Below, in pieces: positions 31,820 through 61,724 of a stretch of 64,000 nucleotides of DNA. The notes below the pieces were generated by a model. That model was not told the DNA's origin and made no database searches. It was given only the letters and a program-made list of their open reading frames with translations. Each line of letters opens with the position of its first letter. Position 1 is the first letter of the stretch. A program made the position numbers and the translations under genes. This DNA comes from Micavibrio sp. (GTDB taxonomy: Bacteria > Pseudomonadota > Alphaproteobacteria > Micavibrionales > UBA2020), in the NCBI GenBank assembly GCA_028283745.1, contig JAPWJZ010000010.1:62001-126000 (forward strand), given 5' to 3'.

Positions 31820-33163
31820 ATGTCTCCAAATTACTGGTTTGACCTTGCGGCCTTTGTGGCGCTGTTGATTGCATCGGGGTTCTTTGCGGGGGCGGAAACG
31901 GCGCTGACGGGCGCATCCCGCGCGCGCATGGTGGCGCTTGAAAATACAGGCCAGAAAAAGGCAACGCTGGTGCTGGCACTGCGGGAGAAAAAGGAAGAGC
32001 TTATTTCCGCCCTGCTGCTCGGCAACTCGTTCATGAACATTTTTGCCTCCGCCCTGGCAACCTCCGTCCTTATGCAGTTTTTCGGGGAGCGGGGGATTGC
32101 GATTGCGACGCTGGGCGTGACGGTTATCGTTTTCGTCTTTGCCGAAGTCATGCCCAAAACCTATGCGCTGATGCATGCGGACCGCATGGCGCTTATTCTG
32201 GCGGGGCCGGTGAAGTTTGTGGTGCTGGTCTTTTCGCCCGTCACCATTACTGTTGGCAAGGTCGTCGGGTTTACCTTCCGGCTGTTCGGCATTGATACCA
32301 AGGGCCATTCCGAAACCGCGCACGAGGAAGAATTGCGCGGCGCGATCGAGCTGTTCAAAAGCTCCGATGCGGAGGAAAAAGTCGAGCAGGCCAAGGGCGC
32401 CATGCTGCGCTCCATCATGGACCTTGCCGATGTGACGGTTGAAAAAATCATGGTTCACCGCAAGAACGTGAACATGATCAACCTTGATACCCCCGTGCCG
32501 CAGGTGGTGGATGAAGTGCTGCAAAGCGCCTTCACCCGTATTCCCGTCTGGAAGGACACGCCGGATAATATCGTCGGCGTTATTCATACCAAGCTGCTGC
32601 TGCAGGAATTGCGCAACTGCAACGGCAATATTGCCAAGGTTAACGTGAACAATGCGATGATGGAGCCGTGGTTTATTCCTGAATCCACCACGCTGCTGGA
32701 CCAGCTGCAGGAATTCCGCCGTCGCCGCGAGCATTTTGCCATCATGGTGGATGAATACGGCATCGTCACCGGCATGGTGACGATGGAGGATATTCTTGAG
32801 GAAATCGTCGGCCAGATTGATGACGAGCATGACATTGCGGTGTCGGGCGTGCGCCCGCAGCCGGACGGCACCTATATTGCCGACGGCAAGGTCACCATCC
32901 GCGACCTGAACCGCGACTTTGAATGGCGCTTGCCGGATGAAGAATATTCAACCCTTGCGGGGCTGCTGCTGTTTGAAACCCAGCGCATTCCCGCCGTGGG
33001 GCAGATGTTCAACTTCTATGATTTCCGCTTCGAGGTGCTGAAGCGCCAGCGCAACCAGATTACGCTGATACGCGTGACGCCGCCGCAAAAGCAGCTGACG
33101 CCCGCGCAGGAGAAGGCGCAGGAAAAAGCCGCGCAGGAAAATATGAAGGAAGCACAGGCATGA
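31820..33163 (+). CDS. HlyC/CorC-family (CNNM/CBS) transporter
   Basis: N-terminal TM domain; CBS-type TRIPVWKDTPDNIVGVIHTK...FAIMVDEYGIVTGMVTMEDILEEIVGQIDDEHD. Confidence 0.9.
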   Translation: MSPNYWFDLAAFVALLIASGFFAGAETALTGASRARMVALENTGQKKATLVLALREKKEELISALLLGNSFMNIFASALATSVLMQFFGERGIAIATLGVTVIVFVFAEVMPKTYALMHADRMALILAGPVKFVVLVFSPVTITVGKVVGFTFRLFGIDTKGHSETAHEEELRGAIELFKSSDAEEKVEQAKGAMLRSIMDLADVTVEKIMVHRKNVNMINLDTPVPQVVDEVLQSAFTRIPVWKDTPDNIVGVIHTKLLLQELRNCNGNIAKVNVNNAMMEPWFIPESTTLLDQLQEFRRRREHFAIMVDEYGIVTGMVTMEDILEEIVGQIDDEHDIAVSGVRPQPDGTYIADGKVTIRDLNRDFEWRLPDEEYSTLAGLLLFETQRIPAVGQMFNFYDFRFEVLKRQRNQITLIRVTPPQKQLTPAQEKAQEKAAQENMKEAQA

Positions 33164-35088
33164 GCGGTATTGCGGGCTATCTTGGCCACGCGCAGGAACT
33201 TTCCGTCCTGCAGACCATGGTGCGCAAGCTGAACCACCGCGGGCCGGATGCGGAGGGCTTTCATATTGAAGCACCCGTCTACATGGGCGTGCGCCGCCTT
33301 GCCACCATCGACCCGTCCGAAAACTGGCTGCCGTTTTACAGCGAAGACCGCAAACACGCGATTGTTTTTGCGGGGGAGCTGTATAACCACAACGAACAGC
33401 GCAAAAAGCTGGAGGCGCGGGGGCATGAGTTTCGCACCCAGACGGATACCGAAGTTGTTTTAAAGCTGTACCAGACGCTTGGCCCCAACTGCGTCAACCA
33501 GATGCGCGGCGTTTTTGTTTTCGCCATTCACGACATGCAAAAAGACCTCGTCTTCATGGCGCGTGACCAGTTGGGCGTGCAGCCGCTGTATTACACCACA
33601 ACGCAATCAGGATCGTTCGTCTTTGCCTCCGAAATCAAGTCGCTGCTGGAACACCCCGCCGTGCGCATGATGCCTGACATGGTAGGGGTGGATGCGTTTT
33701 TGTCGCTGCATTACAGCCCCGGTACCGCCGGCATGTTCAAGGGCATCCACAGCCTGCCGCCCGGCCACCGCCTTATCTGGAACCATGGCCTGCACGTGAT
33801 GATCGAGCCATACTGGCAATGGGAAACCTTTGCCGCGCCCGACCCCGTGCTGAAAACCGATGCGGATTTTCAGGAACGCTTCGACGAATTGCTGGAAGAC
33901 AGCGTGCATTTGCGCCAGTTTGATGACGTGCCGTATGGCGCATTCGCCGGTGCGGATCTTGAAAGCGCGGCAATCCTGCACATCATGTCGAAAAAATCAA
34001 CGCGCCCGCTGCGCGTTTTTTCGGCCCCCTTCGATGTCTCGCGGGATGGCGTGCCGCCGGTTTCGGAGATTGCAGGCCGCGTTGGCGCTATGCATGAAGA
34101 AGTTGAATTCCTGCCCGAATACATGGACCGCCTGCCCGAATTGATCTGGGCGCTTGATGAACCGGTGGCGGAGCCGGAAATTCTGCTGTCCAGCCTTATG
34201 GCGCGCGCGGCGGGGCAGAACCTGAAGGCCGTTGTCGCGGGCACGGGCGCGGATGCGCTGTTTGCCAATTACCCGCTGCACGATACGTTGCTGGCGGCAA
34301 ATAAAATGCCCATTTCACTATATGGCGTGATGCGCGAATTTAAATCGCTGCTGCCAGTTTCCATGCTGGCGCGCAAAATTGGCACGCGCGGCAATATTGG
34401 CCAGCGCACCCGCCAGAAGCTGTTCGATTTTGCGGAAGCCGTGCGCGGCGGGTCTTTGTACCAGCAGCATATGTGCCTTGCCGCGGTTTTTGATTCACGC
34501 GACAAGCAGGAAATTTCCGTCGGCGCGCTGGCGCAGGTTGCAGGCACCTTTGCCGACCAGCAGAAAAACCCCGCCGGCTGGCCAACGCTGATGGCATCTA
34601 TGGTAGCGCACCAGCGGGAGCATTTTTTACCGGATGGTGTTTTGACGCCGTTTAACAAAATGACCATGGCCAATGGCGTTGCCTGCCGCCTGCCGTTTGC
34701 CGACCCGAAAATGGCGGAATTCATGCTGGGCGTGCCGGATCATCTGCGCCGCGGCGGCAAGGGGCGCAAGACGTTGCTGCGCAACTACGTTGACCGCGTC
34801 ATGCCGGGCCTTGCGGGCCAGCCGGCCAAGCCGCATGAATTGCCACAGCATAAAAACCTGCTGGAAACATGCCTTGGCACCAATCCCCTTCGTGAAATGG
34901 TTGAAACCTGCCTTTCCGAAGCCAGCATCAAGCGCCGCGGCATGTTTGATTACGCGGCTGTGCGCCGCATTATGGCGGGCGCGAAGGCCGGCGAAGCGCT
35001 GTTCATGCGTCAGGTTTTCTCCTTGCTCGTCCTCGAACTTTGGTTCAGGATATTTGTGGATCACGAGAAGGGCTGGATTTCCAAATAA
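33160..35088 (+). CDS. asparagine-synthetase (AsnB)-like protein with degenerate active sites
   Basis: AsnB layout (GIAGYLG, LNHRGPDAEG, GELYNHNEQRKKL, TDTEVVLKLY, RDQLGVQPLYY, VPYGAFAGADLESAAI, GTGADALFANYP). Confidence 0.85.
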   Translation: MSGIAGYLGHAQELSVLQTMVRKLNHRGPDAEGFHIEAPVYMGVRRLATIDPSENWLPFYSEDRKHAIVFAGELYNHNEQRKKLEARGHEFRTQTDTEVVLKLYQTLGPNCVNQMRGVFVFAIHDMQKDLVFMARDQLGVQPLYYTTTQSGSFVFASEIKSLLEHPAVRMMPDMVGVDAFLSLHYSPGTAGMFKGIHSLPPGHRLIWNHGLHVMIEPYWQWETFAAPDPVLKTDADFQERFDELLEDSVHLRQFDDVPYGAFAGADLESAAILHIMSKKSTRPLRVFSAPFDVSRDGVPPVSEIAGRVGAMHEEVEFLPEYMDRLPELIWALDEPVAEPEILLSSLMARAAGQNLKAVVAGTGADALFANYPLHDTLLAANKMPISLYGVMREFKSLLPVSMLARKIGTRGNIGQRTRQKLFDFAEAVRGGSLYQQHMCLAAVFDSRDKQEISVGALAQVAGTFADQQKNPAGWPTLMASMVAHQREHFLPDGVLTPFNKMTMANGVACRLPFADPKMAEFMLGVPDHLRRGGKGRKTLLRNYVDRVMPGLAGQPAKPHELPQHKNLLETCLGTNPLREMVETCLSEASIKRRGMFDYAAVRRIMAGAKAGEALFMRQVFSLLVLELWFRIFVDHEKGWISK

Positions 35089-35131: not shown

Positions 35132-35866
35132 ATGATGTTGCGGATGACGGCGATAATAGCCGCACTGGTTTTAATACCTTCCATCGCCATGGCTGCAGAA
35201 GCCGGCGCGGAAAAAACAATCGTTCAAGAAGAAAAGCAGGAAGAGGCGCCGAAGGCCGAAACACCTTGGGGCAGCTTTTCCGCAACGCTGACCGGCGTGA
35301 CCGATTACCGCGACCGCGGCATTTCACAATCCGATGAAAAGCCCGCCCTGCAGGGCAGTATCGACTGGGAGCATGACAGCGGCTTTTATCTTGGCATCTG
35401 GGCATCCAACGTCGATTTCAACGATGCCGCCAATGCGCGCATGGAGCTTGATTATTACGGTGGCTATAAAACCACGCTTGCCAATGCCTTCGATGTTGAC
35501 CTGAGCGTCATGGAAACGACGTATCCCGGCGTTGCGGGCAGTTACGATTACAACTTCTATGAAGTGATTGGGGCGATTGGCCATGACTTTGGCCCTGCCA
35601 GCGGCAAGCTCAGCTTCACCTGGTCGCCTGATTATTTCGCCGATAGCGGCACGGAAACGTATACGCGCCTTTCCGGCGAAGCACCGTTGTGGGACAGCGG
35701 CTTTACGCTGAACGGCTGGCTTGGTTACCAGACGGTTGAAAATGAAAGCCGCGGCGGCCCGGATGCTGTCGACTGGGCGGCGGGTGTTGATTACAGCTGG
35801 AAGGGCCTTGACCTTGGCCTTAAGTATATCGATACCAACCTTGGCAACGGCACGTGTCCGGATGTC
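35132..35866 (+). pseudogene. TorF-family putative porin (TIGR02001-like), 3' truncated at the junction
   Basis: Signal peptide; WGSFSATLTGVTDYRDRGISQSDEKPALQGSIDWEHDSGFYLGIWASNVDF...; expected C-terminal strand missing after ...NGTCPDV. Confidence 0.75.
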
Positions 35867-35867
35867 A

Positions 35868-36629
35868 GTGGCCGGTCTCGTAACTTTAGGCAAAGGGCGC
35901 AAGGTGCAGGCTGCCGCGCCGATCAGCCTGCAGCCGGCCTATCGCAACATGAATGCCGAGATGTCCGAGCACGACGCCAAGCGGTTGCTGGCGCAGGCTG
36001 GTGTTCCTTCGCTGCCCGAGCGCCTGGCGAATTCGGCGCAAGAGGCCGTCGAGGCAGCCGAGACGATAGGATATCCGGTCGTCATGAAAATCTGCTCTCC
36101 AGTGATCCCGCACAAGACTGAGATTGGCGGCGTTCTGCTTGCCGTTCCGGATGGCGCGGCCGTACGTGCGGGCTATGATCTTCTACTCTCCCGCGCCACG
36201 GCCGCCGGTTATGAAAGCGCTGCCATAGAGGGCGTTCTTGTCGCGCCAATGGCGCCGAAGGGGATAGAGACGATACTTGGCGTCAATGTCGACCCGACTT
36301 TCGGGCCGGCCGTCATTTTCGGTCTGGGCGGTATCCATGTCGAAGTGTTGAGGGACAGTACGCTTCGGCTTGCACCTTTCGACGAAGCCGAAGCGCAAAA
36401 GATGATCCGTGAAATCCGTAGCTGGCCTCTGTTGGAAGGGGTCCGCGGCGGCAAGCCCGCAGACACCGATGCCCTAGCAAAGGCGCTCGCCGCGCTATCG
36501 CGCTTCGCAGCAGCCAATGCCGACACGCTGGTTTCGATCGACGTCAATCCTTTCGTAGTTTGGGAACAGGGTAAGGGCGCGGCCGCCTTGGATGCCCTCA
36601 TCACCTTTGCCGAACCGGATGAGATCTGA
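35868..36629 (+). pseudogene. acyl-CoA ligase (ADP-forming) ATP-grasp region, 5' truncated at the junction
   Basis: VAGLVTLGKGRKVQ...MSEHDAKRLLAQAGVPSLPERL...AAETIGYPVVMKICSPVIPHKTEIGGVLL; first internal ATG at 35949. Confidence 0.8.
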
Positions 36630-36632
36630 AAC

Positions 36633-37805
36633 ATGGAATTCGCTTTTTCCGCCGAAGAGAACCAGTTTCGCGACAAGGTCCGGACCTGGCTAGCCGAAAA
36701 CAAGCCAAGCGAAGCCCGGCCGCATGATGGCGTTCCGATGCGCGAGTTCGATCTGGCATGGCAGCAGCGCAAATATGAAAGCGGCTGGGCAGGCATCAAC
36801 TGGCCGAAAGAATATGGCGGCCAGGGCCTCTCGTTGGTTGAACAGATGATCTGGCACGAAGAGTGCGCCCGCGCAAGAGCACCGGGCGTCGGCTGCCTCA
36901 GCATCGCACTCAACCATGCCGGCCCGACTATCATTCTGACCGGCACCGAAGAACAGAAGGCCACCTATCTGCCTTCGATCCTTCGGGGTGAATTGGTCTG
37001 GTGCCAGGGATTTTCCGAACCGGGCGCCGGCTCCGATCTCGCCGGCCTCCGCTTGAAAGCAACGATCGACGGCAATCATCTCGTACTCAATGGACAAAAG
37101 ATCTGGACCAGCCACGCCCATCTGGCGACTTATCAGGAAACTTTAGTGCGTACAGGTCCGACGACGCCCAAGCACAAGGGCATCACTTGGCTTATCGTCG
37201 ACATGCGGACGCCCGGCATCCGCATTCGCCCGATCCGCACCATGGCGAACAACTATCACTTCTGCGAAGTCTTCTATGATAACGTTCGGGTACCGCTCAG
37301 CAATGTCGTTGGCGAAGTAGACAACGGCTGGCGCGTCGCAATGTCGACTTTGTCGTTCGAGCGCGGTTCCCTGACTGTGGGACGGGCCGCGGACCTTCGC
37401 TATGTCGTCGAAAAGCTGATCGACATGGCGCATGAGCGCAGCGGTCCCGATGGACGCAAGGCCGCAATCGATGATGACGACATCGGCGTCCGCCTCGCTA
37501 TTCTACGCGCCGAAATCGCCGCCCTGCAGGCCATGAACTACGAAACGATGTCCAAGGATCGGCAAGGCCAGGCCCCAGGCGCGGAAGCGTCGATGGATTT
37601 TCTTTACTGCAGCGAATTGCTGCAGCGCGCGCGATTGCTGGCGCTGGACATATTGGGAGCCGACGCGCTGGAATTATCAGGCGAAACCGGAAATTGGACA
37701 ATCTCCTATCTTGACGACCGCCACTATCTAATCGCCGGAGGTTCCGCAGAAATTAGGCGAAACATCATCGCCGAGCGTATACTTGGCCTGCCGCGGAGTT
37801 CGTGA
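36633..37805 (+). CDS. acyl-CoA dehydrogenase family protein
   Basis: GFSEPGAGSDLAGLRLKA...NGQKIWTSHAH...GGSAEIRRNIIAERILGLPR. Confidence 0.93.
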   Translation: MEFAFSAEENQFRDKVRTWLAENKPSEARPHDGVPMREFDLAWQQRKYESGWAGINWPKEYGGQGLSLVEQMIWHEECARARAPGVGCLSIALNHAGPTIILTGTEEQKATYLPSILRGELVWCQGFSEPGAGSDLAGLRLKATIDGNHLVLNGQKIWTSHAHLATYQETLVRTGPTTPKHKGITWLIVDMRTPGIRIRPIRTMANNYHFCEVFYDNVRVPLSNVVGEVDNGWRVAMSTLSFERGSLTVGRAADLRYVVEKLIDMAHERSGPDGRKAAIDDDDIGVRLAILRAEIAALQAMNYETMSKDRQGQAPGAEASMDFLYCSELLQRARLLALDILGADALELSGETGNWTISYLDDRHYLIAGGSAEIRRNIIAERILGLPRSS

Positions 37806-37806
37806 C

Positions 37807-38835
37807 ATGATAGACTTGCTCCCAGATGCGGACCAGCGGCAGATCATCGACAGCATTGCGGGATATCTCGGTAACCAATTCCCGGTTTCGCGGCTGAGCA
37901 CGGAATATTTAGACGGCGAGAACGAACATCGCGACAGCTGGAAGGGCCTCGCCGAGCAAGGCCTATTCGGCCTATCCGTGGCCGAGAATATGGGGGGCGC
38001 CGGCTTCACTTTGGTCGAAGACGTGCTCGCCGCCCGCGAGTTCGGGCGATTTCTTTTATCGCCTTCGGTACTAGCCTCCAGTCTGGCGGCGCACGTCGCA
38101 GCTACGGCAGGCGATGCCGAATTGGCAGCGGCGATCATCGATGGATCGACGCGCGTCTCCTTTGCGCGGCTCGCGGGGCCTGGCAGAATCGGCGTTCGGA
38201 TTGTCGGTGAAATCCATTTGGTCGATGCCCACCCGGATGATCTGCTGCTGGGATGGGGCAACAACGGCATCGCTCTCTTCGCTCGCGCCGGATTGGCCGA
38301 CTTACGGTCCGTGACGCCGATGGACGGATCGGTCAGACTTGAGCGGGCCTGGGCGAATGGCTTGGCCACCCGAATTTTCCTTCCCACCTCTACAGCACCA
38401 CTGGCGCGTCGCGCCAACCTCATGATGGCGGCGGCGCAAGCCGGCAATGCCGATGCGACCTGCAAGATGGCGGTCGAATATGCCAAAGTGCGCGAGCAGT
38501 TCGGCAAGCCCATAGGCGCTTTCCAAGCCATAGCCCACCATTGCGCGGACATGGCGATCCGCGCCCGAGCGGCGAGTGCGCAAACGGCGTTTGCGTCTAT
38601 CGCCGTGCGCGACGGTCGGGCCGACGCCGACCTTCAAATCGCCTCGGCATCGCTCGTCGCCTCAGACGCAGCCCTGCGCAATGCCACTATTGCCATTCGC
38701 GTACATGGGGGGATGGGCTTTACGGCGGAATGCGATGTCCATCTCTACCTGAAACGCGCCCATCTGCTCGATCATCTGAACGGCGGCGCACGCTTGCATC
38801 AAGAAAAGCTCCTTTCAGGCACGTTTACCGAATGA
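37807..38835 (+). CDS. acyl-CoA dehydrogenase family protein (second, adjacent)
   Basis: LFGLSVAENMGGAGFTLVEDVLAAREFG...YAKVREQFGKPIGAFQAIAHHCADM...HGGMGFTAECDVHLYLKRA. Confidence 0.9.
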   Translation: MIDLLPDADQRQIIDSIAGYLGNQFPVSRLSTEYLDGENEHRDSWKGLAEQGLFGLSVAENMGGAGFTLVEDVLAAREFGRFLLSPSVLASSLAAHVAATAGDAELAAAIIDGSTRVSFARLAGPGRIGVRIVGEIHLVDAHPDDLLLGWGNNGIALFARAGLADLRSVTPMDGSVRLERAWANGLATRIFLPTSTAPLARRANLMMAAAQAGNADATCKMAVEYAKVREQFGKPIGAFQAIAHHCADMAIRARAASAQTAFASIAVRDGRADADLQIASASLVASDAALRNATIAIRVHGGMGFTAECDVHLYLKRAHLLDHLNGGARLHQEKLLSGTFTE

Positions 38836-38875
38836 TGGCGACGGATAGCTGCAGGCTAGGCACAGGACTATTTGA

Positions 38876-40072
38876 ATGAACAGAGCTGCCATTGTCAGTC
38901 CGCTACGGACTCCCGTCGGCCGGTTCCTGGGCAGCCTAGCACCCATTCCGGCGGAGCGGCTCGCGGCACACATCATCACCGCTGTAGTCGAACGCAGCGG
39001 TGTGGATCCGGCTCGGATCGAGGATGTGATCTTCGCGCAGAGCTATGCCAACAGCGAAGCACCTTGCATCGGCCGCTGGGCTGCGCTGGCGGCGGGCCTG
39101 CCGGTCGAAGTGCCCGGCGCACAAGTGGATCGACGCTGCGGCGGCGGCCTTCAATCGATCGTCACTGCCGCGATGATGGTACAGACCGGCGCTGCCGATG
39201 TCGTGCTGGCGGGCGGCGTCGAGAGCATGAGTAACATCGAATATTATACCACGTCGATGCGTGGCGGCGCACGCGCAGGCAGTGTGCAGTTCTACGACCG
39301 GCTCGACCGCGGGCGCGAACGTTCGCAGCCCGTGGAACGCTTCGGCGTGATTTCCGGAATGATAGAAACCGCCGAGAATCTGGCGAAGGACTATGGCATC
39401 AGCCGCGAAGCCGCTGATGCATTCGGTGCGCAGAGCCAGCAACGGGCAGCGGCCGCATGGGATGCGGGCAAATTCGATGACGAAGTGGTGCCGGTCCCGG
39501 TGCCGCAACGCAAGGGCGATCCGATGCTGTTCACCCGCGACGAGGGCATCAGGGGCGACACTACTACCGAAACGCTTTCGAAACTGCGTGCAATCACGTC
39601 TGGCGGTACCGTCACTGCCGGCAATTCAAGTCAGCAAAATGACGCTGCGGCGGCTTGCCTGATCGTCAACGAGAACAAACTCGCGGAACTGGGGCTGCAG
39701 CCTATAGGCTATCTGAGCGGCTGGGCATCGGCAGGTTGCGACCCGTCGCGCATGGGCATCGGCCCCGTCCCCGCCGTGCGCCGCCTGTTTGAGAAGACCG
39801 GCATGTCCTGGGACCGACTGGATTTGGTCGAGATCAACGAAGCCTTCGCAACACAGGTATTGGCTGTGCTCAAAGGCTGGGATTTCGACGATCAATCGCG
39901 GATTAACGTCAATGGGTCAGGCATTTCCCTTGGCCATCCGATCGGCGCGACCGGCGTTCGTATCATGACCACCATGCTGCACGAATTGAAACGCCGCAAG
40001 GGCCGGTTCGGGCTCGAAACCATGTGCATCGGCGGTGGCCAGGGGATGGCTGCACTTTTCGAAGCCGCGTAA
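38876..40072 (+). CDS. thiolase (acetyl-CoA C-acyltransferase family)
   Basis: RTPVGRFLGSLAPI; DRRCGGGLQSIVTAAMMVQTGAADVVLAGGVESMS; NVNGSGISLGHPIGATG; CIGGGQGMA. Confidence 0.94.
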   Translation: MNRAAIVSPLRTPVGRFLGSLAPIPAERLAAHIITAVVERSGVDPARIEDVIFAQSYANSEAPCIGRWAALAAGLPVEVPGAQVDRRCGGGLQSIVTAAMMVQTGAADVVLAGGVESMSNIEYYTTSMRGGARAGSVQFYDRLDRGRERSQPVERFGVISGMIETAENLAKDYGISREAADAFGAQSQQRAAAAWDAGKFDDEVVPVPVPQRKGDPMLFTRDEGIRGDTTTETLSKLRAITSGGTVTAGNSSQQNDAAAACLIVNENKLAELGLQPIGYLSGWASAGCDPSRMGIGPVPAVRRLFEKTGMSWDRLDLVEINEAFATQVLAVLKGWDFDDQSRINVNGSGISLGHPIGATGVRIMTTMLHELKRRKGRFGLETMCIGGGQGMAALFEAA

Positions 40073-40086
40073 AAAAAGGAAGCAAA

Positions 40087-41007
40087 ATGACGCAGCCGGT
40101 CGGGCTAACAGGCAAAGTCGTCGCAATAACCGGCGGTGGACGGGGCATCGGGCGCGAAATCGCGCTGTTATGCGCGCGCGAAGGCGCAGCCGTAGTGGTC
40201 AATGATTTCGGCGGCTCACTAAGCGGCAGCGGCACGGATTCCGGGCCGGCGGCGGAAGTCGCCGGACAAATCGAGGCGGCGGGTGGTCGCGCGATAGCGA
40301 ACCTTGCCAATGTCGCCGATCCTGAAGGCGCCACGTCGATCGTCGAAGACGCGATCAAGGCTTTCGGACGGATCGACAGTATCGTCAACAATGCCGGTGT
40401 CTCGCGCGACGGCATGTTCCACAAGATGAGCGCCGCAGACTGGCAAGCCGTAATCGACGTCCATCTGGGTGGAAGCTTCCATCTGTCACGCGCGGCCGCC
40501 CCGGTATTTCGCGAGCAAGGAAGCGGTGCGTTCGTACATATGACCTCGACCTCTGGTCTCATCGGCAACGTCGGGCAATCCAACTATTCGGCTGCAAAAA
40601 TGGCGATCGTCGGCCTCTCGAATTCGATCGCGCTCGACATGCAGCGTTTCGGTGTCCGTTCCAATTGCGTGGCACCATTCGCCTGGAGTCGGATGACCGC
40701 GAGCATTCCGGCCGAGACTGAGGCGCAGAAGGAGCGGGTCGAACGGCTCAAGACGATGACCGCCGACAAAGTGGCGCCCATAGTAGCCTTTCTCTGTTCG
40801 GACGCGGCCGCTGATGTCACCGGCCAAATCTTCTGCGTGCGCAAGAACGAGATATTCCTGTTCTCACCGCCTCGCCCGGTCCGGTCAATGCACCGCGATC
40901 ATGGCTGGACGCCCGCGACGCTCGCATCGGAACTTCTACCAGCCTTCAAGCCGAGCCTATTTCCGCTGCAGGTATCTGCCGATGTGTTTGCGTGGGATCC
41001 CGTCTGA
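40087..41007 (+). CDS. SDR-family oxidoreductase (multifunctional-enzyme-type dehydrogenase)
   Basis: VVAITGGGRGIGREIALLCAREGAAVVVNDFGG; NNAGVSRDGMFHKM; YSAAK. Confidence 0.92.
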   Translation: MTQPVGLTGKVVAITGGGRGIGREIALLCAREGAAVVVNDFGGSLSGSGTDSGPAAEVAGQIEAAGGRAIANLANVADPEGATSIVEDAIKAFGRIDSIVNNAGVSRDGMFHKMSAADWQAVIDVHLGGSFHLSRAAAPVFREQGSGAFVHMTSTSGLIGNVGQSNYSAAKMAIVGLSNSIALDMQRFGVRSNCVAPFAWSRMTASIPAETEAQKERVERLKTMTADKVAPIVAFLCSDAAADVTGQIFCVRKNEIFLFSPPRPVRSMHRDHGWTPATLASELLPAFKPSLFPLQVSADVFAWDPV

Positions 41008-41036
41008 GGGCAAACTGATGGGGCAATCGGCCGGGG

Positions 41037-41864
41037 ATGATCCAGTTGAAAGATGATAGGCCTATATTTGGTGTCAGCCAGAGCGTTCTGTTCAACGCGG
41101 ATATGGCGAGCGACCTCGATACGGCGCTGGAATCGGGCTTTACCCATATTGCACTGCTGGATCAGATGGTGCATCGAACGGGGCTAGGCGAAACACTTCG
41201 CCTACTCCGCGAACGTCCGCTCGCTGTCAGTTCCTATCACACAGGGTTGATGATCGTCGAAATGGCCGAGGCGGAAGCGGACGCCAGGCTACGAGAGGAA
41301 ATCGCGATCGCCGAAGCCTTGGGTGCTCCCGCGATGGTCGTCTGCCCGGGGTACGGCGGCAATCGGTCCGCTTATGCTGCCGAAGCCGTTTTGACGGAAC
41401 GGCTGCAACGCGTTGGCCCCCTCGCCCGTCGGTCGGGCGTGGTCATCGGGATCGAGCCGCTTCATCCATTTCTTCACGCCAGCAGTTTTCTGCATACGGT
41501 GCGCGATACGGCTCGTATCGCAGCACAAGTAGAATCCTGCGGCGTGATCGCCGATCTTGTCCATCTTTATTGGGATCGGCAGTTCCTAGACGATATCTTT
41601 CGACATATCGACGCAGTCTGCATGGTCCATCTCGCCAATCTTGATAAAGCCGCCATGCAGGAGCGACGTTGGCGTCGCGCGGCGCTGGACGGAGATGTGG
41701 TGCCGGTGGCTAAACTGGTGCACGCATTTCAAGAAGCCGGATATCGCGGCAACTATGAAAATGAGATCATCTGCCGTCAGTCAGCAACGGAAAGCCGGGA
41801 CGCGGCGGCAGCATCTCGTATCTGGTTCGAAGGATTGTGGCGCATCGAAAACGCTGCCGAATAA
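41037..41864 (+). CDS. sugar phosphate isomerase/epimerase-like TIM-barrel protein
   Basis: AP-endonuclease-2-like pattern: GIEPLHPF, VIADLVHLYWD, NYENEIIC. Confidence 0.7.
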   Translation: MIQLKDDRPIFGVSQSVLFNADMASDLDTALESGFTHIALLDQMVHRTGLGETLRLLRERPLAVSSYHTGLMIVEMAEAEADARLREEIAIAEALGAPAMVVCPGYGGNRSAYAAEAVLTERLQRVGPLARRSGVVIGIEPLHPFLHASSFLHTVRDTARIAAQVESCGVIADLVHLYWDRQFLDDIFRHIDAVCMVHLANLDKAAMQERRWRRAALDGDVVPVAKLVHAFQEAGYRGNYENEIICRQSATESRDAAAASRIWFEGLWRIENAAE

Positions 41865-41893
41865 CTGCAATGGCAATTGCGCGATGTTATTTT

Positions 41894-41903
41894 TTGTATA
41901 CAA
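41894..41903. promoter_or_regulatory. candidate GntR operator TTGTATACAA
   Basis: Palindrome TTTGTATACAAA about 23 bp upstream of the DUF35 gene ATG. Confidence 0.6.
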
Positions 41904-41926
41904 ACTCTGCCGAGAGGAAGGCAGAT

Positions 41927-42385
41927 ATGACATCGACCAATGACAGCCCGGCCCCCGTTCGCGTGTCTTTGCGCGAGGGGCTGTTGCTCGGCGAGTTGTA
42001 CAATATCAGCAGCGTACGCCTGGCAGGCTGCAAATGCGCCGATTGCGGGGAAACGTCGCTTGGCGAACGGCTGATCTGCCCCAATTGCGGGCAGAGCGAC
42101 GTATCGACCGTCGCCCTAGGTAATGTCGGCACATTGTGGAGTTTCACCGTCATCCGCCATCGTCCGCCCGGCGACTACCGCGGACCGACGCCCTTCGCTC
42201 CGTTCGGCTTGGGCCTTGTCGAGCTGACGGAGGGGTTGCGGGTGCTTTCCCCCATCGACGTCGATGTCGATGCGCTCGAGATAGGCCTACCATTGCGGTT
42301 CCACCCATATGTCAGGCACGATCCAGAAAAGGATGTGGTCGCCTTTTCCTATGTACCCAATTTAGGGGCTACGCTCGATGTCTGA
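41927..42385 (+). CDS. Zn-ribbon / OB-fold (DUF35) protein
   Basis: CKCADCGETSLGERLICPNCGQSDV Zn ribbon followed by an OB-like domain. Confidence 0.9.
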   Translation: MTSTNDSPAPVRVSLREGLLLGELYNISSVRLAGCKCADCGETSLGERLICPNCGQSDVSTVALGNVGTLWSFTVIRHRPPGDYRGPTPFAPFGLGLVELTEGLRVLSPIDVDVDALEIGLPLRFHPYVRHDPEKDVVAFSYVPNLGATLDV

Positions 42386-43526
42386 CGTCGTCATCCTGGG
42401 CACGGGCATCCACCCTTTCGGTCGCTTCGAGACGCGGTATCAGGAAATGGGGGCGCAGGCCGCTTCGGACGCACTGCGCGACGCGGGCGTCGAATGGCGC
42501 GATATCCAGGCCGCCTATCTGGCACGCATGTATTTACCTGCGACATCTGGCGCGCGAATTCTCAGCCGGCTGGGCAGCACCGATATATCGATCTTGGATA
42601 TCGAGGCAGCCTGTGCCAGCGGCGGTGTCGCACTGCGTCAGGCGATCCTCGCGATCCGGTCTGGAGAGGTCGATCTGGTGCTCGTACTGGGCTGCGAAAA
42701 GATGCCGCGCGGGTTCATGGACCCCAAGATGCTCTACGACGACTGGCAGATCGAGTTAGGCACCTCGGTCAACCCATCTTACTGGGCAATGCGCGCGATG
42801 CGGCACATGCACGATTATGGCACGACCGAGGAGCAGATCGCCAAGGTCGCTTACAAGAACCACCGCAACAGCGTCCACAACGTCAACGCAATGTACCGTA
42901 AGCCCTTCAGTATGGAAGCGATTTTGAACTCTCCGCTGGTGTGTGACCCGATTAGACTGCTCGAAATCTGCGCTCCGAACGATGGGGCTGCCGCCGTCGT
43001 GCTTGCCTCGCCGGAACGGGCGCGGCGGATCGGCATAAAGGGCAAGGCGATCCAGATTGCGGGTGTCAGCCACACGGTCGCGCGCTATTCCGCCGACTTC
43101 CGGTGCCCGGCCGATAGCATGAGCGCCACCGCTCACAATCCCGGGCCGACCAGCATCACGGCGGCCAAGGCCTATGAGCAGGCCGCCGTAGGTCCAGCGG
43201 ACATCAACTGCTTCGAGGTGCAGGATACCGACGCCTTCTGCGAGATCGAGGCCTGCGAAGATCTGGGCCTCTGCCCCACGGGTGCAGGAGGCGCGCTCAT
43301 CGACGCCGGTTTCACCGAGATTACCGGTACAAAGCCGGTCAATATGAGCGGCGGCCTGATCAGCAAGGGCGAACCGATGGGCGCGTCGCATCTCGGCCAA
43401 GTTGTGGAAATCGTGGCGCAGTTGCGCGGCGAGGCGGGCCCTCGGCAGGTCGCCGATGCCAAGGTCGGGCTGGCGCACGTGCTGGGCGCCGGCGGCAATT
43501 GTGCCGTGACCATCCTAAAAAGGTGA
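42378..43526 (+). CDS. thiolase-family protein (SCP-X/Ltp-like)
   Basis: DIEAACASGGVALRQAILAIRSGEVDLVLVLGCEKM; C-terminal GAGGNCAVTIL; overlaps the DUF35 ORF. Confidence 0.88.
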   Translation: MSDVVILGTGIHPFGRFETRYQEMGAQAASDALRDAGVEWRDIQAAYLARMYLPATSGARILSRLGSTDISILDIEAACASGGVALRQAILAIRSGEVDLVLVLGCEKMPRGFMDPKMLYDDWQIELGTSVNPSYWAMRAMRHMHDYGTTEEQIAKVAYKNHRNSVHNVNAMYRKPFSMEAILNSPLVCDPIRLLEICAPNDGAAAVVLASPERARRIGIKGKAIQIAGVSHTVARYSADFRCPADSMSATAHNPGPTSITAAKAYEQAAVGPADINCFEVQDTDAFCEIEACEDLGLCPTGAGGALIDAGFTEITGTKPVNMSGGLISKGEPMGASHLGQVVEIVAQLRGEAGPRQVADAKVGLAHVLGAGGNCAVTILKR

Positions 43527-43560
43527 GAATCTCCGCGATGATCCGCCATGGGAGAAACAA

Positions 43561-44334
43561 ATGACCAGCTTGGTCAAAACCACGCGCGAGGGCGAGATCG
43601 CGATCGTCACGCTCAATCTGCCGGAGAAGCGTAATGCTCTTTCGGTGGATTTGCGCCATGCGCTGATCGAAGCGCTGGAACCATTACAGATCGACCCAAC
43701 CTGCCGTGCCATCGTCGTCACCGGTGCGGGGGGGACGTTCTGTGCCGGCGGCGATATATCCGCCATGCGCTCCGACGATATAGCAGGGTCGCGCTATCGC
43801 CTGATCCTGGCCCAGCGGAGTGTTCGGATGCTGGCTGCGGGAACGAAGCCCACGATAGCCGCCGTCGAAGGCTTCGCCCTAGGCGGCGGCATGGCCCTGG
43901 CTCTGGCATGCGATCGCGTCGTCGCCAGTCCGACGGCGAAATTCGGTGCATCTTATTCCAAGGTGGGCCTAATGGCCGACATGGGCCTGTTGTGGACACT
44001 TCCCCGGCGGGTCGGCAGCGGCAAGGCTGCGGAAATCCTGATGCTGGGCGATACATTCGACGCAAGCGAAGCCGCAGCCATCGGCGTCGTGGACAAGATC
44101 GCTGGAGAGCAGAGTGTATTGGATACGGCGGTGGAAGAAGCAAAACGCTTCGCCGCGGCTCCCCCGCTCGCCATCGCGCTAACTAAGAATGCATTGGGGC
44201 GCGGCGTGGGCGACCTGGAAGTGGCTTTGGCGATGGAACTGGACGGCCAAGCAATTCTGTACCGCAGCAGCGACCACGCCGAAGCGCGCGCTGCATTCGG
44301 GGAAAAGCGGGCACCTGTCTTTTCCGGCACATGA
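43561..44334 (+). CDS. enoyl-CoA hydratase/isomerase
   Basis: GAGGTFCAGGDISAM; VEGFALGGGMALALACD. Confidence 0.93.
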   Translation: MTSLVKTTREGEIAIVTLNLPEKRNALSVDLRHALIEALEPLQIDPTCRAIVVTGAGGTFCAGGDISAMRSDDIAGSRYRLILAQRSVRMLAAGTKPTIAAVEGFALGGGMALALACDRVVASPTAKFGASYSKVGLMADMGLLWTLPRRVGSGKAAEILMLGDTFDASEAAAIGVVDKIAGEQSVLDTAVEEAKRFAAAPPLAIALTKNALGRGVGDLEVALAMELDGQAILYRSSDHAEARAAFGEKRAPVFSGT

Positions 44335-44399
44335 CCTCGAACATATCAGCGTCCCAGCAGCCAGGATAGCGCGACCTGCCCCAGGCCATCTCAAACAGG

Positions 44400-44430
44400 T
44401 TGCACTCCCTCTACCTTTGTATGCTATAAT
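44400..44430 (+). promoter_or_regulatory. candidate sigma70-type promoter upstream of the GntR gene
   Basis: TTGCAC-N19-TATAAT. Confidence 0.35.
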
Positions 44431-44509
44431 GACATGATCTGCTGCTGGGAGGCCCCTGACGTCCATCCCCATGGAGCGATTTTTGAGCGCGAAGAATTGA
44501 GGACGGACG

Positions 44510-45265
44510 ATGCGGAAAATGGAGCAGGGTACGAAAGCCCTGATCATGCTCAGGGACTCGATCTTGAACGGGGACCTGCCCGCTGGGGAGCGATTGCTCG
44601 AACTCGCGCTGGTCGAAAGATTGCAGATCTCCAGAACGCCTATTCGTTTCGCGCTGGATCGGCTGGCTGACGAAGGCCTCCTCGAAAAAATCAATGGCGG
44701 CTACGCTGTTCGTGCTTTCACACGACAGGAAATACGCGACGCAATCCGTGTCCGCGGCCTCCTGGAAGGTATGGCCGTGCGAATGGCCGCCGAACGCGGC
44801 CCCTTGCCGGAGCCACTCCAAGCCGCGCGACAATGCATCCAAGATCTGGAATTGGTCATAGCCAACCAAAGCTCCAAGAAGGTCGATGTAGAAAGCTACC
44901 TGTCAATAAATCGCCGATTCCATCAGGCGCTCATCGAAATGGCTGATAGTTTTGTAATTACTCGAATGTTGAACAGTATCTGTAGTCTTCCTTTTGCCTC
45001 GCCCAACTCATTCGTTATGGCGCAACGTCAGGTCGGTGATATTCGTCAGGTGATTTTCACGTCGCAGGTGCAACATCGCACCATGCTGGAAGCCATTGAA
45101 AATGGGGAGGGCGCGCGCGCGGAATCCATCGCACGCGAGCATGCTGAGCTTTCGCTGACCGCCATGCGAAAGACGCTGGAGAAACCGCAGCTGATCAATA
45201 AGATTTCTGGCATGGAACTGCTAAAGCTGACGGAAGACGAGATACCGGAACATAGTCGCTCTTAG
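44510..45265 (+). CDS. GntR-family (FCD domain) transcriptional regulator
   Basis: ILNGDLPAGERLLELALVERLQISRTPIRFALDRLADEGLLEKI...GYAVRAFTRQEIRDAIRVRGLLEGMAVRMAAE. Confidence 0.9.
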   Translation: MRKMEQGTKALIMLRDSILNGDLPAGERLLELALVERLQISRTPIRFALDRLADEGLLEKINGGYAVRAFTRQEIRDAIRVRGLLEGMAVRMAAERGPLPEPLQAARQCIQDLELVIANQSSKKVDVESYLSINRRFHQALIEMADSFVITRMLNSICSLPFASPNSFVMAQRQVGDIRQVIFTSQVQHRTMLEAIENGEGARAESIAREHAELSLTAMRKTLEKPQLINKISGMELLKLTEDEIPEHSRS

Positions 45266-45309
45266 TACGCTCTGATGATCTCGAAAATCGTCTCTGGACC
45301 AAGCACGCC

Positions 45310-46554
45310 TTACGCATCGCGGCTACCGTAGCTCGAGGCGAGGTCAGCCTGAAAGGCCGGGCTGGCTATCGCAATCAGGGCCTCGGCTCTTGCCTGAGCC
45401 GATTTTCCGCGCAAATCTGCTACGCCGAATTCAGTTACGACGAAGTCGACCGCATGCCGCGGAACGGCGATGGGCGTTCCTGCTGCGAAACGAGAAACGA
45501 TACGCGATGCCTTGCCTTTCCTGTCGGTCGCCGGCAAGGCGATTATGCTCTTGCCGCCTTTTGCCTTGTGCGCGCCGATCGTGAACTCCGGCAATCCGCC
45601 TGCACTGCTGACATAGCGGCCGCCAACCATTTCCGTGTTGCACTGGCCAAGCAGATCGACCTCGATCGCTGAATTGATCGCGGTCAGCTTGGGGATGCCA
45701 ACAAGTTTCGCCAGATCGTGGGTTTCGCTGACCTCGGCAAGTGTGACTTCGCGGCTCTGTTCAAGCCAGTCGTAAAATGCCTGGTCGCCTGCACCCGAGG
45801 CCGCGACGATTGTGCCGACTCCTTCTATAACCCCGCCTTCGACCAAATCCCGAGCGCCAGGAAGCACGATGCCGGAGTGTATGCGCAAGTTGCGCCGTTG
45901 CGACAGCGCCTTCAGCACTTGGCCCGGAACCTTGCCGATCCCGGTCTGGATCGTCGCACCGTCTTCGATCAAGGAAGCAACATGGCTTGCGATCTTGATC
46001 GAGACCTGGTCCGCGCTTGGCGTAGGGATATCGAGAATTGGACGGACCGTGCGTACCGCATAGTCGAAATCCGACAGTGCAATGGCCGCCCCCCCCAGAC
46101 CAGGCCGGATATTCTCGTTGATCACGGCGATGCTGCACTTTGCGGCGGCCGCAGCCTCCACCCCGAATTCGACACAAGGGCCGAGCGAGCAGCGCCCGCT
46201 CGCATCGGGTGGCGAAACTTGCAGGACGGCGACGTCCAGGCCAGCGCACCGGATATATTCTAAAATTTCATGGTAGCTTATCGGGACCACCGTCATGCGT
46301 GCAGGGCCATCAAGCGCTGCGGTCGGCAAAGGAAAAAAGCTGGTCACCCGCACACTTGGTTCGATTGTCGCAAAATCAAACATATTGATCCCGGCGATGA
46401 AACTCGTGACTATTTCGCTGCCCGCGACCAATTCCGGACGTGCCTTGAGCGCATCCAGAAAATCTGTAGGCTCACCTGAGGAGCCGGGTATAAAGACGCG
46501 GCGCCCGGCGATCACCGATCCGTCCATCGTTTTCCAATCGATCCAGTTGGTCAT
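45310..46554 (-). CDS. acetyl-CoA hydrolase/transferase-family CoA-transferase
   Basis: QTGIGKVPGQVLKAL...RIHSGIVLPGARDLVEGGVI...INSAIEVDLLGQCNTEMVGGRYVSSAGG. Confidence 0.88.
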   Translation of the reverse strand: MTNWIDWKTMDGSVIAGRRVFIPGSSGEPTDFLDALKARPELVAGSEIVTSFIAGINMFDFATIEPSVRVTSFFPLPTAALDGPARMTVVPISYHEILEYIRCAGLDVAVLQVSPPDASGRCSLGPCVEFGVEAAAAAKCSIAVINENIRPGLGGAAIALSDFDYAVRTVRPILDIPTPSADQVSIKIASHVASLIEDGATIQTGIGKVPGQVLKALSQRRNLRIHSGIVLPGARDLVEGGVIEGVGTIVAASGAGDQAFYDWLEQSREVTLAEVSETHDLAKLVGIPKLTAINSAIEVDLLGQCNTEMVGGRYVSSAGGLPEFTIGAHKAKGGKSIIALPATDRKGKASRIVSRFAAGTPIAVPRHAVDFVVTEFGVADLRGKSAQARAEALIAIASPAFQADLASSYGSRDA

Positions 46555-46636
46555 TTTCCTCGGCCGCAGGTGAAATCGTTGGCTTTGCCGTTTGCGTAAA
46601 AATGCGGCACCGATGCCGTTTATAATGGAATACTCC

Positions 46637-46650
46637 AATTGTATACAATT
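46637..46650. promoter_or_regulatory. candidate GntR operator, 14-bp palindrome
   Basis: AATTGTATACAATT, upstream of the CoA-transferase gene. Confidence 0.65.
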
Positions 46651-46693
46651 AAAGCCTGCAAGCGCTACCGTGCGGTGAGCTTGACAGCAGGCT

Positions 46694-46707
46694 TATTGTA
46701 TACAATA
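46694..46707. promoter_or_regulatory. candidate GntR operator, 14-bp palindrome
   Basis: TATTGTATACAATA, upstream of the MaoC gene and 57 bp from the previous palindrome. Confidence 0.65.
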
Positions 46708-46772
46708 TGGAGAGACGGACGCAGCCGGCGCTGTCGTATGCATTTCCGTCGGTCAGGGCTACGGGATTGAGT

Positions 46773-47894
46773 GTGGCATACGAAGCTATAGATACGTCTG
46801 ATGTTGAACGCTGGATCGGAGAGACGATCGGCGGAGAACAACTGCGAGAACCGATTTCCGTGTCGGATATGCGACGCTGGGTTCAGGCGATGCACAACCC
46901 CAACCCCGTTCACTATGACGACGATTATCGCGATGCCGAGGGCGTTTTCGTGGCACCTCAGTCGTTGATCCTGGCCTGCGCCATTCGGCACGGCGTCACG
47001 CCTTCCATGCAGGGACAAATTCCCGGCGGCCGGCAGATGAACGGCGGCGATGAATGGTGGTTCTACGACCGTGTCAGTATTGGTGATCGAGTCACATCGG
47101 TGCGCCAGGCATTCGACTACCGCGTGACCGAGACTGCCTTTGCCGGTCCCACCATTTTTCAGCGTGGGGACACAGTCTACGTCAACCAGAATGGCAAAGT
47201 CCTTGCCAGGCAGCGATCGACCGCAATCCGCTTTCTTGCCGTCAATCTCAAGCAGAAGTCGAAAAAAGAGGACGGTTCCGCGCTTCCCGAAACGACGGAC
47301 GAGATGATCGGGGCGTTCGAACAAGAGCGTCTGGCCTATGCTCGAGCCCTTCGCGAAACGCCACCGCCTGTGGCGGCGGACGTAAAGGTCGGCATGAGCC
47401 TGCCTCGCCGGCTGGTCGGGCCCCATTCGATCCAGAGCTTCACGACCGAACAACGCGCGTTTCTCTATACGATTTGGGGGAATCTGTCGGACGATGGCCT
47501 GCCACGCACAGAGCGTGTGTTCCGGTCAGCCGATGCGGCGCTCGATCCCGAGTTCGGCGACGGCCTCTATCATGGCGCATCCGCAGGCCACACAGATTCC
47601 AAGTCGGCCGCGCAACGGGGCATGCCGCGTGCCTACGGCGCCGGCGCATCCGTATGCGCCTTCATCATCGATTATGCGGCGAATTGGGCTGGCGGCTCGG
47701 GGTGGGTGGAGCATTGTTCAATCCAGTATCGCAGCCCTGTGCTTGTCGGCGATGCTACCTATATTTCTGCCGAAGTCATCGGCATCGAACAGGCTGACGG
47801 GCATCATGTCGTGAAGCTTTCGGTCGAGGCCGCCAACCAGGCAGGTATCATCAATACGCGCGGCAAAGTCACCGTCCGCCTGCCGGTCACATAG
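46773..47894 (+). CDS. MaoC-like / FAS1-type dehydratase (double hot-dog)
   Basis: MHNPNPVHYDDDYRDAEGVFVAPQSL...SIQYRSPVLVGDATYISAEVIG; GTG start at 46773 preferred over ATG at 46707, which abuts the operator. Confidence 0.75.
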   Translation: MAYEAIDTSDVERWIGETIGGEQLREPISVSDMRRWVQAMHNPNPVHYDDDYRDAEGVFVAPQSLILACAIRHGVTPSMQGQIPGGRQMNGGDEWWFYDRVSIGDRVTSVRQAFDYRVTETAFAGPTIFQRGDTVYVNQNGKVLARQRSTAIRFLAVNLKQKSKKEDGSALPETTDEMIGAFEQERLAYARALRETPPPVAADVKVGMSLPRRLVGPHSIQSFTTEQRAFLYTIWGNLSDDGLPRTERVFRSADAALDPEFGDGLYHGASAGHTDSKSAAQRGMPRAYGAGASVCAFIIDYAANWAGGSGWVEHCSIQYRSPVLVGDATYISAEVIGIEQADGHHVVKLSVEAANQAGIINTRGKVTVRLPVT

Positions 47895-47990
47895 AATATT
47901 TGCGAGGCCGATCTGAATTCGTCGGCCTTGCGCGACCCCCACACTTCATCCCTGGCACCGTCGGGGCAAAAAAATCCTGGAGAAGGCGGC

Positions 47991-50165
47991 ATGGACGACG
48001 CGATTAGTGGCTTAATTTCCGACCTGCGCCGGCAGGCATTCCCGCTCAAGGATACGCCTGAGTTCTGCATCCCCGAGCCGTTCGTGAAGCAACTGCTGCG
48101 CGCCGCCGGTGTACGTACACCAATTGGCGCCTTGGTCGGTCCGGCCGGCGTCGTCACCGCCGCCGAGACCATGCAGGCTCCCTTCGTTCTGAAGGCCTGG
48201 GGGCCGGGTATTGTCCACAAGAGCGAACTGGGAGCAGTCAAGGTCGGCGTGGGGCGCGAGGAACTCGATACCGCCGGCGCAGCCATGTTGAAGACGGTCG
48301 CCGGGTTCGGGATCGAAGGTGCGCAGCTCTACGTGGAGGAAATGGCGGAACCGGCCACCGAAATACTGTTCGGCATGATCTCCCGTCCGCCCTTCGGGAC
48401 GCTGGCCATATTGGGAATGGGCGGCACCAAGGCGGAGCTATTCGGCGCGCCGGTGGTCCGGCTGTGCCCTCTGTCGGCAGAGACCATCGGCGAGATGGTC
48501 GACACGTTCAACGGCGCCGCGCTCCTAAAAGGCTATCGTGGGGCGCCGGCCGCGGATCGCGACGCGCTGATCGCCACCATCCTCGCCCTTGCGGGGAAGG
48601 ATGGAATGGTGCAGCAGTTGGGCCCCGACTTCGCCGAATTCGAGTGCAACCCTTTGTTCGTTGGGCCATCCGGCGTGATTGCGGCCGACGCGCGACTCAT
48701 CCTGAACCCGGAAAAGAAAGGCGAAGCGCCGCAGCGCGCTCCGTTCGACGCCACCGCATTCTATACCCCAAAATCCGTAGCAGTGGTCGGCGCATCGACA
48801 AACCGCAAGACCGCCTGGGGCAATCGCACACTGGCGCGCTACCGCGCACTGGGCTGGACCGAAAATCTCTATGCGGTGCATCCGACGGCGGAAGAAATTG
48901 ACGGTGTGCCCACATACAAGACGCTGGGCGACATCCCGGGCGGGGTGGACTATGCCGAGCTCAGTGTGGCGGCCAATCTGGCGCCCGATGTTCTAAAGGC
49001 CGCGCGAGGTAACGTGAAGACTGCCACAGTTACCGCTGCGGGCTTTTCCGAAGTAGGCGACGCAGGCAATTCGCTGGAAGCCAGCCTGATCGCCTCGGCG
49101 GCGGAAGGCGGCGTGCGGTTCATTGGTCCCAACTGCATGGGCGTATATTCGCCCGGTGGCCGCCAAGCGTTCAGTGGCGCGACCTCGACCGAGACTGGCC
49201 ATATCAGCGCCGTCCTGCAAAGCGGCGGCCTCGCCACTGACCTCATCCAAACTGCCGCCGCGCAAGGGGTCCGCTTCAACAGCGTGGTGTCGGCCGGCAA
49301 TACTGCAGACGTTCGCCTCAGTGACCTCGTCCGCTATCTGGCACAGGACGATGCGACCCAGACGATCGGCATCCATATCGAGGGTGGCGCGGACATCGCG
49401 CTGATCGAAGCACTGCGGGATCTCGACGGACGCAAGCCGGTAGTCATCCTTCTTCCTGGCCTCAGTGCCACGGGCGGCCGCGTCGCCGCCTCCCATACCG
49501 GATCGATGACCAGCGAGCGGCGTGGTTGGGAGGCCTTGGTGGCGGCGACCGGCGTTACCGTTACCGAGACTTTCGAGGAGTTCCTGGCAGCCCTCGTCTA
49601 CCTCGATAAATATCGCGATCAGCGCGGCGGTGCCGATGAGTCGGTGCTCATCATGGGTCTGGGCGGCGGATCATCGGTGCTCGCTGCCGATGCATGCGAT
49701 GCACAGGGCCTGAGTGTGCCGATCCTCGCTGAAAATCTTCAGGCCAGGCTGGGCGACAAGAAGGGTGGAATTTCGATCAATCCCCTCGACGTCCGCCTCG
49801 GCCCGGCAGGCCCGCCAGCCGCCGCGCGCGAGATACTCGATCTGGTCCTACCGGTTCAGCCCTTCGCCGATACCATCATCCACGTGAATGCGATGAACTA
49901 CGCCAACTCGGTCGTGCCAGGGCGTTTGGCCGGCATCGATCATTTCATCGGACTGCTCGAAAACCTGACGAAGGGCACCGCCCCCCACACACGCATTGCT
50001 ATCGTCGTGCGCAATCTGGGTCATGCCCCCGGAGAATATCGCGACCTTATCCGGAATTTCATCGCAAGCGCCACGATCCCCGTGTTCGAGCGATTTTCCG
50101 ATGCAGCGGCAGCCATAGCTGCAGCACAGCGGTTCGACCGCCATCGCGAAGCGCGAAAGGCATGA
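47991..50165 (+). CDS. acetate--CoA ligase family protein (ADP-forming, fused ATP-grasp and CoA-binding domains)
   Basis: APFVLKAWGPGIVHKSELGAVKVGV...ECNPLFVG...PKSVAVVGAS...GGVRFIGPNCMGVYSPGG. Confidence 0.9.
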   Translation: MDDAISGLISDLRRQAFPLKDTPEFCIPEPFVKQLLRAAGVRTPIGALVGPAGVVTAAETMQAPFVLKAWGPGIVHKSELGAVKVGVGREELDTAGAAMLKTVAGFGIEGAQLYVEEMAEPATEILFGMISRPPFGTLAILGMGGTKAELFGAPVVRLCPLSAETIGEMVDTFNGAALLKGYRGAPAADRDALIATILALAGKDGMVQQLGPDFAEFECNPLFVGPSGVIAADARLILNPEKKGEAPQRAPFDATAFYTPKSVAVVGASTNRKTAWGNRTLARYRALGWTENLYAVHPTAEEIDGVPTYKTLGDIPGGVDYAELSVAANLAPDVLKAARGNVKTATVTAAGFSEVGDAGNSLEASLIASAAEGGVRFIGPNCMGVYSPGGRQAFSGATSTETGHISAVLQSGGLATDLIQTAAAQGVRFNSVVSAGNTADVRLSDLVRYLAQDDATQTIGIHIEGGADIALIEALRDLDGRKPVVILLPGLSATGGRVAASHTGSMTSERRGWEALVAATGVTVTETFEEFLAALVYLDKYRDQRGGADESVLIMGLGGGSSVLAADACDAQGLSVPILAENLQARLGDKKGGISINPLDVRLGPAGPPAAAREILDLVLPVQPFADTIIHVNAMNYANSVVPGRLAGIDHFIGLLENLTKGTAPHTRIAIVVRNLGHAPGEYRDLIRNFIASATIPVFERFSDAAAAIAAAQRFDRHREARKA

Positions 50166-50245
50166 AGCGCCGAAGCGCCGAAGCGCTCGGCTTGCGTGAG
50201 ATTTAACGTGCCGAACGCCAAGGCTGATTTGATACCCTCATAAAC

Positions 50246-50278
50246 GACAAGGGCCGCAGCAGCGCTGCGGCCCTTGTC
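50246..50278. terminator. perfect 15-bp stem hairpin between convergent genes
   Basis: GACAAGGGCCGCAGC-agc-GCTGCGGCCCTTGTC; no T-tract. Confidence 0.55.
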
Positions 50279-50319
50279 ATATGGCGGCGACCCAACCCCG
50301 GGCGATGCCCGGACGTTGT

Positions 50320-51699: not shown

Positions 51700-52195
51700 G
51701 ACAGCGCGACTTTCATAGGAAATATTACGTGTACGTTAGTGGCCGAACGCTGAGGCAATGTAACCATCATGCATCTTCTGAACAGCGCGGTTATCATGAC
51801 GGCCGCCAGACTGACTAGAAAGCAGACATAGCCGGGAATTCGATCGGTTCGATATGGTGCCCGATCGTCCTATCACGCCGTACCCGGTTCGCAACCGGCA
51901 TTGACCGACTGGGGTGCGACGATTGCCGCCATGTCTAAACGGCCTCCAACGCTATGCGATAGAGACCGCTAAGATTGATATCGACTATTCTATCGGCAAA
52001 ACCGAGGACGAATTTCAGCGGGTCCGCAACATTCAGGATACCACCACGTCGATTTTGCTGCTTCTCCGGGTGCCGATTGCCGAAATGTGGAAAAATGCCT
52101 TTCTACCATCAAGCTGCCATAACGCGGCTCTCATACTGATCGCCTCGACACAGATAAGGCAGCCGCTGATACCGCTGAAGCTGAATCGGCGATGA

Positions 52196-53378: not shown

Positions 53379-53489
53379 TTTCTTCTCCTTCGGACCATTC
53401 TATCGGCTGGCTGGAGCGGCCTCCGCCCTACCTCTGCCCCCTTGACGTCGGTGCGTGGCACCAATGTCGAGACCAGCCGACGAACGTAA

Positions 53490-54593: not shown

Positions 54594-54613
54594 AATTTAT
54601 GCTGTAAAAATTA

Positions 54614-54623
54614 TTGTATACAA
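54614..54623. promoter_or_regulatory. candidate GntR operator TTGTATACAA
   Basis: Palindrome about 21 bp upstream of the amidohydrolase start (minus strand). Confidence 0.6.
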
Positions 54624-54773
54624 GTATGGCTCCGTTGAAAATGGCTAAATTCGGCGGTTTCGAAGCCATTTCAGTCCGACAGTTAGGGTGTTTTTGCCAT
54701 TTCAGGTCCACTGATCGGGTTGACGGGCATATTTTGGTCCGACAATAACCTTCGCAGGATTGGATGGGTTACG

Positions 54774-55904: not shown

Positions 55905-55917
55905 AGGTTACAATCGC

Positions 55918-61662: not shown

Positions 61663-61724
61663 CAGCATGAGGCTTCCCTGGCGAAGCGAGCGCCACTCGC
61701 TGGCATTGCGCCGTCAGCGTCCTG

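Follow-up and report, generated by a model that had tools for sequence, protein, structure and literature searches.

A probable inter-genome chimeric contig in a Micavibrio sp. assembly, with foreign-type tracts at four further contig ends

Joins between sequences of different genomes have been reported for all assemblers tested (PMC11261854, PMC7881036), and species with low to intermediate coverage are involved in them more often (PMC7881036, PMC11261854). The break described here is similar to the inter-reference misassemblies of these benchmarks (PMC11261854, PMC7881036), in that the parts of one contig match different organisms and meet at one sharp breakpoint, but it differs from them in that five contig ends of one 10-contig genome are involved, with tracts of 11-77 kb. 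It also has a likeness to genomic islands and integrative elements, because accessory catabolic genes lie beside host sequence in a block whose composition is foreign. However, neither a tRNA site nor a second boundary was found for this block, the foreign gene at its edge is truncated, and, in contrast to an island, the pattern is repeated at other contig ends with several sources, some of which carry chromosomal core genes.

A joint that cuts a gene on each side

The window, by which we mean the whole stretch of 64,000 nucleotides that was analysed, covers positions 62001-126000 of C7, a contig of 131,010 bases in a host assembly of 3.37 Mb and 10 contigs, for which a completeness of 96.8% and a contamination of 6.83% are stated. 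The host part of the contig (1..35863) is poor in the word GATC and collinear with genomes of the same genus; in a blastn comparison, for instance, the window from 5.9 kb to 35.4 kb was collinear with one of these, G002, at 67-88% identity. The last complete host gene before the break (33160..35088, plus strand) is an intact ORF of 642 residues, whose length and context are identical in G002 and which, from recognition of its sequence, we take to encode an asparagine-synthase-like protein. It is followed by a Gcw_chp/TorF-type outer-membrane gene (35132..35863, plus strand), the frame of which is open from an ATG at 35132. The match to Pfam PF09694 (Gcw_chp; E 2.7e-42) covers profile positions 9-202 of 230, and the 3' end of the gene is therefore missing. 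The product is normal up to ...IDTNLGNGTCPD, with the last codon (GAT) at 35861-35863, and the reading then passes from ...GNGTCPD into VSGRSRNF..., which is unrelated to the homologues. Three homologues from the same genus end in ...CPDGC[ASD]ATAVF[TS][VI]SH[KT]FGG with a stop codon a few residues later, so that the conserved last ~20 residues have been lost from the gene in the window. When the lost 3' end was sought elsewhere in the genome, only one weak match of 41 residues, interrupted by stop codons, was found on contig C2, and it was rejected because it overlaps unrelated ORFs and lies away from the contig end.

On the other side of the break, the plus-strand stretch 35865..36629 encodes the C-terminal ATP-grasp part of a fused acetate--CoA ligase (Pfam ATP-grasp_5, E 8.9e-67). 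When it was aligned with fused ligases of ~700 residues from four plasmids, the fragment started at about column 459 of the 719-column alignment, and ~460 N-terminal residues are absent. In Sulfitobacter sp. W074, the intact order is ligase, acyl-CoA dehydrogenase, acyl-CoA dehydrogenase and SDR, and the ligase fragment in the window is likewise followed by two acyl-CoA dehydrogenases. The breakpoint thus ignores gene structure, as judged by the alignments and the Pfam matches, and because both genes are cut the joint can be placed to ~3 bases from gene homology on both sides, at 35863|35865, where the last host codon ends at 35863, the foreign frame is homologous from 35865-35868 and a change-point in GATC lies nearby. 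The sequence-only reading had described an abrupt junction at 35855-35875 that breaks a gene on each side, with a TorF-like frame turning to nonsense before its proper end and a different frame entering an ADP-forming acyl-CoA ligase midway. Its coordinates were right and are refined here, both truncations are borne out by Pfam and the homologues (the three from the same genus and the profile match reaching 202 of 230 positions for the first gene), and the entry into the ligase falls at about residue 460.

Composition and content of the two sides

The density of GATC rises from 1.37 per kb left of the joint to 8.25 per kb right of it, in agreement with the earlier impression of more GATC on the right, and is 7.98 per kb over the final 5 kb of C7. 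A change-point computed from GATC alone fell at 35,900-35,920 and raised the log-likelihood by 94.7, as compared with at most 27.3 in 1000 block shuffles. Since the first GATC right of the joint is at 35,921, this agrees with the gene evidence as closely as the word allows. Comparison of the tetranucleotide profiles, a check that the sequence-only reading had proposed, showed the two halves of the window to be sharply different (r = 0.53). The left half correlated at 0.82-0.92 with other 20-kb samples of the genome (0.59 with an AT-rich sample, L009), and the right half at 0.44-0.58 with the same samples. Two different genomes are indicated by this composition together with the collinearity of the left side with same-genus genomes and the near-absence of DNA matches for the right side: a search of 34 relatives gave no match to the tract except one hit of 34 bases. 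As a separate observation, GATC is strongly depleted in the host part of the window (z of -13.6 against the trinucleotide expectation) and also in the sampled interiors of the genome, which would suit a restriction or methylation system directed at GATC that is, or once was, active in the host.

The foreign tract (35865..64000 in the window) reaches 5,010 bases past the window to the end of C7, for a total length of 33.1 kb, with a single boundary inside the contig and no return to host sequence. Its Pfam content (acyl-CoA dehydrogenases, thiolases, SDRs, a CoA-transferase and CoA ligases) is that of the catabolic cluster recognised earlier from the sequence, and among the matches there were no replication or partition genes. 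An amidohydrolase within the tract (window 52,199-53,378, minus strand) looks frameshifted near 52.85 kb, its N-terminal part and its Pfam-matching C-terminal part being in different frames.

The source would be another, probably proteobacterial, organism. When the first complete acyl-CoA dehydrogenase of the tract was compared with genome contigs, the best match had 58% protein identity and the matches were scattered over many taxa. Similarly, comparison of the tract with 386 genomes of the same class, eight named genomes and a plasmid collection yielded mostly single-gene matches of 64-73% DNA identity, or else short hits. The tract on C7 may share its source with the one on C3 described below, as would be weakly suggested by tetranucleotide correlations of 0.49-0.70 between the two, the correlation between the two halves of the C7 tract itself being 0.61.

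High-GATC tracts at other contig ends

A survey of the assembly took in both ends of the nine larger contigs, the small contig C9 in full and 600 kb of interior sequence, sampled as 30 stretches of 20 kb. High-GATC tracts were found at five contig ends, on C1, C3, C4, C6 and C7, each with one switch in composition after which the tract runs to the contig end. No further tract was found in 300 interior bins of 2 kb, in which the mean GATC count was 3.1; two bins reached 10, one of them being the start of the C1 tract. The five tracts sum to ~192 kb, or 5.7% of the assembly, a share close to the stated contamination, which is, however, a measure of a different thing. The tracts also differ among themselves in profile. 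An ORF-overlap proxy for frameshift density, considered as a sign of low coverage, failed to separate the tracts from the host and was dropped.

The tract on C1 (~478.2 kb, ~478,200, to 555,511, the contig end; 77 kb) is Acidobacteria-like. Its carboxypeptidase-regulatory TonB-linked protein has three near-full-length plasmid matches, all of them in Granulicella and Acidisarcina (Acidobacteria), and we take some of its ORFs, from recognition, to be ispG, ksgA, murI and mreB. A match to a fluoride riboswitch also lies inside this tract. The tract on C4 (1-~22,250, the contig start; 22 kb) has 66% GC and resembles the core of a Caulobacter-like chromosome, with ORFs that we read, again by recognition, as presumable mnmE, mnmG, rsmG, parA, parB, holA and leuS. 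MAGs labelled Caulobacter sp. and Caulobacteraceae gave matches to it, mostly at 67-76% DNA identity and in single stretches of up to 4.2 kb; it is collinear with MAGs of Caulobacter type at 69-75%, and its gene order is kept in the Caulobacteraceae MAG. Furthermore, profile searches found SecB twice, in the host at C1:397142 and in the C4 tract at C4:21072, and UvrC twice, in the host at C5:769480 and in the C1 tract at C1:537392-539299. Contamination of the same kind is thus present on other contigs, at four further ends and with duplicates of secB and uvrC.

High GATC also marks the tracts on C3 (~334,750-382,200, the contig end; 47 kb) and C6 (~357,970-369,523, the contig end; 11.5 kb). 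When the joints were read by eye, the phosphoketolase of the foreign side and the RND pump of the host side each appeared to be cut on C3, a Tim44-type protein ended at the joint on C4, and the joint on C6 may lie between genes. Among the ORFs of the C3 tract are ones resembling DnaK, GrpE and HtpG. The tract also has an unbroken stretch of 94 G at C3:371,768-371,861, which looks like a technical artefact and counts in favour of misassembly.

The missing coaBC gene and the origin of the break

In genomes of the same family, coaBC lies within a few kb after the asparagine-synthase gene, on the other strand (for G001, G005, G006, G009 and G011 this order was judged by coordinates), and in G002 and G004 the TorF-type gene sits between the two. 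Of 14 related genomes searched, 13 have a match to the coaBC protein of G002; among these are all five other members of the genus as well as genomes of other families. With the same protein as query, coaBC was absent from the whole host assembly, as is to be expected if the host's true continuation is not at the joint. The synthesis of CoA is normally indispensable, and the simplest reading of the absence is therefore that this continuation has been left out of the assembly. Conversely, an insertion would leave coaBC somewhere, and its presence on no contig is evidence against one.

Taken with the other tracts, these results make it almost certain that the break in the window is a join between genomes in a chimeric contig, a misassembly and not biology. 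In such a case the host sequence would end inside the TorF-type gene at 35863, where assembly of the host may have stopped, a chimeric read or a false overlap would have extended the contig with reads from an organism that occurred alongside the host, and the real continuation of the host, from coaBC onward, would have been left out. The moderate level of the stated contamination, the length of the contigs and the fact that no core gene was recognised among the Pfam-scanned proteins of the C7 tract count against a chimera.

The same lack of core genes would suit a real and recent horizontal acquisition, in which illegitimate recombination attached a catabolic island, 33 kb long or longer, to the end of the TorF-type gene; transfer of catabolic clusters between bacteria does occur. 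Nevertheless, such an acquisition is very unlikely. No tRNA or Rfam gene was found in the 64-kb window and no integrase among the proteins scanned with Pfam, a scan that took in not every small ORF; this accords with the sequence-only reading, which had noticed no tRNA or integrase at the point, and leaves the edge of the tract with neither of the marks of an island. The foreign ligase gene is cut as well, and within the contig host sequence lies on one side of the block only, foreign composition reaching the contig end; a second boundary might lie past that end, but the coaBC that should lie beyond an insertion is nowhere in the assembly. Four other contig ends show this pattern too, their foreign DNA coming from different sources, and some of those tracts hold pieces of chromosome with core genes from unrelated bacteria, which are not islands.

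The sequence-only reading had left the choice between a chimeric contig and illegitimate recombination. The first is upheld by the five contig ends, the duplicate secB and uvrC and the missing coaBC; recombination alone explains neither the four other ends nor the duplicates nor the loss of coaBC. It would also be highly improbable that the other contig ends arose as separate assembly errors while, at this one, the host took up the catabolic cluster through a very recent illegitimate recombination, with loss of both the end of the TorF-type gene and the coaBC region. Finally, although plasmids of other bacteria carry gene clusters like this one and secondary replicons can differ in composition, it is scarcely credible that the C7 tract represents a secondary replicon of the host that became linked to the chromosome, whether in error or through real co-integration, since other tracts carry chromosomal core genes and a second secB and uvrC and have mutually different profiles, the 34 relatives lack matching DNA save for the single short hit, and replication and partition genes are missing from the Pfam matches of the tract.

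With the break read as a chimeric joint, the sequence right of 35,864 should not be credited to the host and should be set aside before the genome is used. The assembly is the sole genome for its species in the searched collection, and the ~192 kb at its five contig ends, including the catabolic cluster, is probably from other organisms. Any claim on pathways, horizontal transfer or gene neighbourhood that rests on these tracts would be mistaken, and the lack of coaBC would wrongly be taken for gene loss; the earlier warning against gene-context claims across the joint was thus correct. The feature matters for annotation hygiene only, and tracing a single depleted short word through each contig as far as both ends is an inexpensive way to screen for chimeras.

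Along the contigs of this assembly, GATC is also raised at the starts of C6 (1-~18,000), C8 (1-~12,000) and C10 (1-~4,000), which may be mobile DNA or short foreign pieces. The starts of C6 and C8 were discounted as foreign tracts, as their profiles are host-like (r = 0.72-0.84 with host samples). In addition, the start of C5 overlaps the end of C10 by 671 bases at 99% identity, and the start of C2 overlaps the end of C4 by 2 kb at 97%; these overlaps may be true adjacencies or repeats.
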